Shown: positions 34,494 to 35,870 of the stretch, piece by piece
How positions within the stretch are numbered: position 1 is the stretch's first letter
Layout: the number at the start of each line of letters is the position of its first letter
Source of the DNA: Caedibacter sp. 38-128
Lineage (GTDB): Bacteria; Pseudomonadota; Alphaproteobacteria; Caedimonadales; Caedimonadaceae
Direction of reading: 5' to 3'
DNA length: 41,120 bases
NCBI GenBank assembly: GCA_001898705.1
Contig: MKUU01000041.1
Location: 1-41,120, forward strand
Program-made: the position numbers and the translations under genes
The notes under the pieces: generated by a model
What the model was told of the DNA's origin: nothing
Databases searched by the model: none
The model's input: the letters and a program-made list of their open reading frames with translations, nothing else

Positions 34494-35441
34494 TTGTATC
34501 TCTTTATCTTATCTCTTGCTTTTTACTTGTTAGACTTCCAATCATACAGCGAAAGTATTGATGATCCGTAAAATTTTAAATAGTTTTGAGTCTAACGTTT
34601 TTTTCAAATTTTACAATTCTTTTAAGGAATATGAGTGAGAAGATAAGCCTTTAAAGATTTCTCTTTAAAACTTTACAATCCCGTTAACAACGCTCTCTTT
34701 TTATTAGAAGGCATTTGATTTAAAGAAAAAAACTGAAATAGAATGAGAGTCGAAATTTTTATCTTATTTTTGCAGAAATATTCTCTAGGAGAAACTGAAA
34801 AAACAGTCAAAAGAAATGGAGGGGGGTGGTCCTTGAACCTTTAGCCTGCCCTGTTCATCTTAAAGCTCTCCCCTAGCTTGATATAGAACTTTCATACGCG
34901 GCTTGGTAACCCCCTGTTACCTTTCTGAAACTAGGCTAACAAATCCAAAATAAATTTCAAGCATAAAGCGCTTGATTTTTAAATATTTTTGAAAAATTAT
35001 TGCGATAAAAAATTAATATCTCATTTTTTGAGACCTTTAATATTTCATCAACCAAATATTAATGTATTATTAATATGGTGATAACCTTTTGTTAACTTTT
35101 AAGATTCTGTTACTCAATACCTTGTAATAGAGGTCATAAAAAATTCTTTTTAAACTCAAACAATCTTACCGCTTTCTATTTTCGATAAAATTTAAAGGAT
35201 AAATTTATCTTTAGGGTCCGAAAATAACCAAAAATTTACCTTTTATACATAAAAAACTAAATTTAGTTTTTACATAAAATTAAAATAAAATATTAATTAT
35301 TTACTAATGTAATCAATTATTTAAATTAATTAATTAGATAATTAAAATTTAAGATAAATTAAATTATTTGACTAAAAGCTAATATTAATATTATTTTTTA
35401 AAAGGTGGGGGAAAATTGTAACAACAATTGAAAGACCTTCG
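34494..35441. other. 950-bp AT-rich intergenic region upstream of sucA
   Basis: No gene is seen on either strand. It must contain the sucA promoter (minus) and that of the secreted protein at 35442 (plus). The stretch 35200-35400 is extremely AT-rich with many TTAA/ATTAAT strings. In contrast, 34815-34940 is a GC-richer block that can fold (next entry). An inverted repeat AATTGT-AACA-ACAATT at 35414-35429 sits just before the 35442 start codon. I looked for DnaA boxes and CtrA sites and found only imperfect matches. Confidence 0.6.
34841..34939. ncRNA. Candidate structured RNA or folded leader, strand unknown
   Basis: Long-range arms TTAGCCT (34841-34847) and AGGCTAA (34933-34939) enclose two hairpins. 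The first is GTTC-ATC ... GAT ... GAAC with inner AAGCT-CTCCCCT-AGCTT (34853-34889, 12 pairs with two 3-base bulges). The second is GGTAAC-CCCCT-GTTACC (34905-34921, 6 perfect pairs). Both loops are C-rich on + (G-rich on -), and a G6 tract at 34821-34826 could pair with them. This is a three-way-junction layout. On the minus strand it would lie in a long sucA leader. It matches no RNA family I know. Confidence 0.35.
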
Positions 35442-35870
35442 ATGAAAAAAACTACCCTCCCAACCCTGCTTTTGGCATTTATTTCATTTTCTTGCAGTTT
35501 ATATAGTTCATCTATGCATGAAGATATCAAGGAACCCAATTCTCATAAACGCTTGCTGACAGTATACGCAAATGATATGAGCCCAAATGAATTAGATAAA
35601 ATCCGTGAGCGGCAACTACTAACAGCCGGCCTAGCAAATTTCTTAAATGGTAATACAAAAGCTGCTTTACCTTTATTTAAACAAGCTTTGGAGTCTTATG
35701 GTTCACCGCTTGGCTATCTATATGCCGGTGTTTTGGATAATAACGATGATACATTTGAAAGATATTATACTATCGCTACTTTGGCGGTAGAAGGTAACGC
35801 ACTACAAAAAGATGTTTTTGACGAACATGTGCACTATCTTATCCAAGAAGGTTTTTTATCTAAATCTTAA
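35442..35870 (+). CDS. Small secreted TPR/Sel1-like protein of unknown function
   Basis: A 142-residue protein with a signal peptide (MKKTTLPTLLLAFISFSCSLYSS). The mature part has helical repeats: LLTAGLANFLNGNTKAALPLFKQALESYG reads like one TPR unit, and SPLGYLYAGVLDNN like the start of another. No family can be named with confidence. The ribosome site is weak. It lies on the opposite strand between sucD and sucA, with its own AT-rich upstream region and a shared terminator downstream, as if inserted into the TCA cluster. Confidence 0.75.
   Translation: MKKTTLPTLLLAFISFSCSLYSSSMHEDIKEPNSHKRLLTVYANDMSPNELDKIRERQLLTAGLANFLNGNTKAALPLFKQALESYGSPLGYLYAGVLDNNDDTFERYYTIATLAVEGNALQKDVFDEHVHYLIQEGFLSKS

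Follow-up and report, generated by a model that had tools for sequence, protein, structure and literature searches.

What is the G+C-richer block that lies in the intergenic region upstream of sucA, and does it act on sucA at all? The window, i.e. the whole stretch of 41,120 nucleotides of Caedibacter sp. 38-128 analysed here, had been described in an earlier note that placed a candidate new structured RNA at 34841-34939, preferably as an element of a long sucA leader and alternatively as a free small RNA. The base composition is as described there: the block has 44-46% G+C compared with mostly 8-30% in the surrounding intergenic region, and it is the G+C-richest part of the gap upstream of sucA. 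The plus strand of 34841-34939 folds at -22.5 kcal/mol (z = -2.4; 3 of 200 shuffles equally good), and the fold of the minus strand is less remarkable (z = -0.9). Taken alone, the plus-strand fold of the block is moderately better than that of shuffled sequence and is by itself weak evidence.

A DNA search of 37 genomes returned a single homolog in synteny, likewise upstream of sucA (same-genus genome G001), and, unexpectedly, a second copy from the window's own genome, on a different contig. A covariance search with a model of these three sequences (R1; window copy, second copy and G001 homolog) revealed a multicopy family. R2, a 26-copy covariance model that includes the window copy, matches 14 times in the window genome (G000), seven times in G001 and nine times in G002, its congeners, and twice in G003, a genome of the sister genus. 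The window copy itself (34812..34923, minus strand) is matched by R2 with an E value of 2.9e-15 and by the compact covariance model R3, in a class-wide search, with an E value of 1.1e-13, being in both cases part of the training set. With R3, the family extends to a second alphaproteobacterial order, in which it is detected in 15 of 17 genomes at E<=0.5, doubtfully so in the weakest cases, and 12 of the genomes reach E<=4e-4 or come near it; most members of this order carry one to seven copies per genome. Among 385 genomes across the Alphaproteobacteria, only the genus, its sister genus and the second order have matches at E<=5e-4, so the search carries a built-in specificity control. We rejected the R1 match L141 and weak matches in G005, G006, G007, G009, G313, G167 and G180, which either fall inside genes or do not have the core motif. 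The relatives of its SucA assign the organism to the Alphaproteobacteria.

Comparison of the copies moves the conserved RNA to roughly 34926-34810 (minus strand) and brings the neighbouring G6 tract into it. The window copy and its upstream region are read as follows.

35001..35022, minus strand: upstream dyad GAGATATTAATTTTTTATCGCA, a likely operator, 101 nt before P1
34955..34960, minus strand: -35 box TTGAAA, predicted from the sequence, in the same place in homologous copies
34933..34938, minus strand: putative -10 box TAGCCT, separated from the -35 box by N16 and ending 11 nt before P1
~34927 to ~34800, minus strand: probable transcript, as predicted
34812..34923, minus strand: core of the structured RNA by covariance-model match, 5' end on the 34923 side
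34905..34921, minus strand: P1 hairpin (GGTAAC 34921-34916, loop AGGGG 34915-34911, GTTACC 34910-34905)
34900..34903, minus strand: P2 5' arm AGCC, pairing with 34846-34843
34862..34892, minus strand: P4 hairpin inside P2 (AAAGTTCT 34892-34885, AGAGCTTT 34869-34862; the loop contains AAGCTAGGGGA)
34843..34854, minus strand: conserved strand ACAGGGcAGGCT, whose GGCT (34846-34843) is the P2 3' arm
34828..34839, minus strand: P3 hairpin GGTT-CAAG-GACC, with compensatory changes
34821..34826, minus strand: C-tract (the plus-strand G6 of the earlier note), pseudoknot partner of P1 loop positions 34914-34911

The consensus RNA begins with P1 (GGYARC-nGGGG-GYURCC) and P2 (UAGCC/GGCUA), which encloses a variable arm, and continues through the ACAGGGAAGGCU strand, kept across most genus copies, AAAAG, P3 (GRU..AYC) and CACCCCCACNAA, which carries the C-tract paired to the loop of P1. 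From this consensus the window copy deviates by a one-base shift after P1. In P1, 94% of cells are paired and three of six pairs show both-sided changes; P2 covaries and is 79% paired; the compensatory changes in P3 comprise GAUC/GAUC, GAUU/AAUC and GGU/ACC. A P4-type stem, CUAAAGNUCC/GGGANCUUUAG, folds around an AGGGGA loop in most long copies and is absent from the compact ones. The pseudoknot pairing is present in 26/26 copies, with a single compensatory case, in which GGGGG/CCCCC has become a GAGGG loop and a CCCUC tail (copy L114 of G002). One of the 14 copies of the window genome, L178 (G000:C25:6353-6467), is degenerate; its P1 is intact, the GGGGG loop is lost and the CCCCC tail is retained.

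Over the whole R2 alignment, 89% of cells are paired as against 38-54% in slid controls, the covariation score is 0.204 as against 0.141, and eight pairs are changed on both sides as against 4.8 in shuffles. The same pairing trend is seen in the compact set, to which second-order copies contribute. Because relatedness of the copies inflates the shuffle counts, we rely on the comparison with slid controls, on the repetition of the result in the second order and on individual compensatory cases. On the minus strand, G-U cells outnumber A-C cells by 23 to 7 (13 to 4 in the compact set), which favours the minus strand; on these counts and the direction of the predicted promoter, a plus-strand RNA was rejected. 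The minimum-energy fold of the window copy, in which pseudoknots cannot be drawn, did not return the comparative structure and favoured other pairings; the structure thus rests on comparison, not on energy. The homologous multicopy family, P1, P2, P3, the loop-tail pseudoknot, the strand of the RNA, a consistent promoter position and the shared upstream dyad are shown computationally. The window copy has what defines the new family, P1 with a GGGGG-type loop, P2, P3 and a pairing C-tract, and we regard it as very likely that a genuine family of structured RNAs is encoded on the minus strand.

A new structured RNA is present, as had been proposed, but its architecture differs from the one first drawn. 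Every stem that was quoted can be read in the sequence; the conserved stems do not include the closing one or two of the others. The closing stem TTAGCCT/AGGCTAA reads TTAATCT and GCGCTAA in the syntenic relative and is likewise missing from the second copy of the genome. Of its two arms, AGGCTAA is genuine but has another partner, its GGCT pairing with AGCC at 34903-34900, and the 5' arm coincides with the -10 region. GTTC/GAAC and AAGCT/AGCTT are both found, but are better read as the single stem AAAGTTCT/AGAGCTTT, which recurs in most long copies. Comparison among the copies bears out the hairpin GGTAAC/GTTACC, and likewise the pairing of its G/C-rich loop with the adjacent G6/C6 tract.

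Is the RNA made from a promoter of its own? Most genus copies have a TTGAAA-type -35 box and a TATGAT- or TATACT-type -10 box that ends 11-12 nt before P1. In the window copy the -10 box, TAGCCT, is weak, where sister copies have TATGAT or TATACT. Copies of the second order show, by eye, a -10-like TTTGCTAGGAT or TTTGCTATGGT just before P1. No classical GC stem followed by a U-run is evident after the C-tract, and the 3' end is therefore uncertain.

Further upstream, most genus copies share the dyad, which starts 100-104 nt before P1 and has the consensus GAGATA-N10-TATCGC, or in its fuller form GMGATAT-N5-T-N2-T-N-TCGCA. Every exact site lies upstream of an RNA copy: 7/7 in the window genome, 4/4 in G001 and 4/4 in G002, 15/15 in total. 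With up to one mismatch, the whole window genome contains ten distinct sites (14 matches when palindromes are counted twice), and the reversed pattern, used as a control, has no match in it. One further site is an overlapping pair on contig C57. In G003 and G329 there is no exact site, and matches occur at chance level only. The dyad is absent from the copies beside conjugation-type genes, the trhO copies and the hemB-side copies. The only other sites in the window genome, each with one mismatch, are at L203:2548 (G000:C43:30047) and L204:1741 (G000:C39:8240), each of them near a gene or upstream of it; the two genes are related, and one has a weak haem-oxygenase-2-like match. The presumed regulator of the dyad may also control these two genes.

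The copies are scattered singly and their adjoining genes are varied, often distant or on the opposite strand. Among the neighbours are sucA/sucD, umuC-like, trhO-like, hemB-like, LysR, EamA, nitroreductase-like and conjugation-type genes, the names being read from the sequence wherever there is no Pfam match. At several loci, the sucD side, umuC, trhO and the hemB side, the gene neighbourhood is retained across three species. The window genome, of about 2 Mb, carries a polyketide-synthase-like reading frame (L021:5038-6000, G000:C43) that lies a few kb away from the umuC-side copy.

The role that had been preferred at the outset, a cis-acting riboswitch or protein-responsive element in the leader of sucA-sucB-lpd, agrees with the strand of the RNA, which is that of sucA, and with the position of the copy upstream of sucA in G000 and G001. 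These are the only two such cases: the G002 orthologue retains its sucD-side neighbours and precedes a gene other than sucA, and in the window some 318 nt separate the end of the core from the start codon of sucA. On these two grounds, and since most copies are found away from sucA, beside many unrelated genes, and most genus copies have their own predicted promoter and upstream dyad, we give the leader reading a very slim chance. The compact copies L131, L132 and L136 lie about 45 nt before the start codon of trhO-like genes in all three congeners and have no dyad; some copies, with those at trhO as the best candidates, could act in cis. A multicopy family might also be a hitch-hiker on mobile elements, a noncoding RNA, ribozyme or guide-like RNA spread by transposition or conjugation, and several copies do adjoin conjugation-type genes (MobA/MobL in G329; TraD-like and helicase-like reading frames elsewhere). 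The loci that keep their neighbours in three species argue against such spread, no constant reading frame or transposase accompanies the copies, and neither a plasmid BLAST nor an exact pattern scan of viral contigs gave a match, which makes this origin improbable, if less so than the leader.

Could the conserved element act as DNA, as a protein-binding or cruciform site or as a homing site for introns, and not as a functional RNA? Group II introns directly follow the CCCCCACTA end in three copies from two orders, which would suit such a site, but strand-specific tolerance of G-U pairs, a predicted promoter at fixed distance and a compensatory pseudoknot change speak for an RNA, and a purely DNA-level feature is scarcely credible. 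In the three copies, L138, L211 and L212, the introns (RF01999) apparently begin with GTGCGCC or GTACGCC right after CCCCCACTA, as if the 3' end of the RNA were a preferred insertion site. In this it would resemble the terminators that serve group IIC introns (PMC7161350). The conserved strands might, moreover, be a decoy that titrates an RNA-binding protein or binds RNA polymerase through GGGA/GGGGA repeats, after the manner of CsrB-type RNAs or 6S RNA and with no pairing to mRNAs, a role with which the same observations would agree. Conserved AGGGA and AGGGGA strands, many copies and a compact fold would suit this, and ACAGGGA is similar to the consensus of CsrA sites. Yet the genome encodes no CsrA, has a separate canonical 6S gene, and each RNA holds only one to three GGA motifs; we consider a decoy rather unlikely, though the least so of these alternatives.

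We turn back to the free small RNA, formerly the second choice and now probably the right reading: the family is probably one of regulatory small RNAs rather than a sucA switch. Our full proposal, a free-standing, pseudoknotted sibling small RNA of about 115 nt, coregulated through the dyad and acting in trans, probably with Hfq, seems to us somewhat more likely than not. A dedicated transcription factor would bind the dyad and jointly control most siblings in the genus. The RNA would act in trans, most likely on mRNAs and probably with Hfq, which the genome encodes (E 8.9e-32), by pairing through exposed strands, either G-rich (AGGGGAG, ACAGGGA) or C-rich (CACCCCCAC). The pseudoknot between the GGGGG loop and the CCCCC tail would shield the RNA and would mask or free one of these strands. 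Most of the difference among the siblings is in the arm enclosed by P2, and each might thereby have a partner of its own. More tentatively, we envisage a regulon in which one regulator reads GAGATA-N10-TATCGC and controls most of up to 14 siblings, the inner arms selecting the partners and the G5/C5 core serving as scaffold, an idea that we hold somewhat short of an even chance. A candidate target, GGTGGGGG at 35405-35412 of the window, lies in the 5' region of reading frame 35442-35870, which is divergent. There, GGTGGGGGAAAATTG could pair with CCCCCACC, the family tail, to which it is complementary, and GTTGGGGG, a G5 tract, is retained in G001; the tract is altered in G002 and G-tracts are common in the window, so this target is only a lead.

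The family appears to be previously undescribed, of a known kind, the small regulatory RNAs, with unusual architecture and copy number. At the gathering cut-off, Rfam 15 finds nothing but a tRNA in the window, and nothing relevant at E<=10; in the further copies tested it finds only the neighbouring group II introns. Searches of the literature outside subscription journals and preprints, by sequence string and by presumed taxon combined with small RNA, found no account of it. In bacteria for which our searches found no small-RNA work, it combines many copies in small genomes with a common control site, and the covariance models, the aligned copies, the dyad and the expected ends make the family directly testable.

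How does it compare with known systems? The sucA-type leader motifs of Rfam, none of which matches at the gathering score or at E up to 10, have in common with it the location before sucA in the window genome, a location that is not conserved here. 6S RNA (RF00013) is likewise a free-standing structured RNA; here, however, the fold is pseudoknotted where that of 6S RNA is a long bulged hairpin, nothing in the window matches 6S RNA, and the sole match in the genome is the canonical 6S gene at C60. CsrB/RsmZ-type decoys resemble it in their GGA-containing conserved strands; in this family such motifs are few, the RNA is pseudoknotted and a CsrA gene was not found in the genome. The sibling small RNAs of the Alphaproteobacteria known as CcsR or cuckoo RNAs share with it several structured copies per genome and, as proposed here, common control. 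A single operon that also contains a DUF1127 gene, under an RpoHI/RpoHII promoter, gives rise to the CcsR RNAs by processing (PMC10253847), whereas the copies described here are scattered singly, most genus copies have a predicted promoter of their own, and the family shares a loop-tail pseudoknot.
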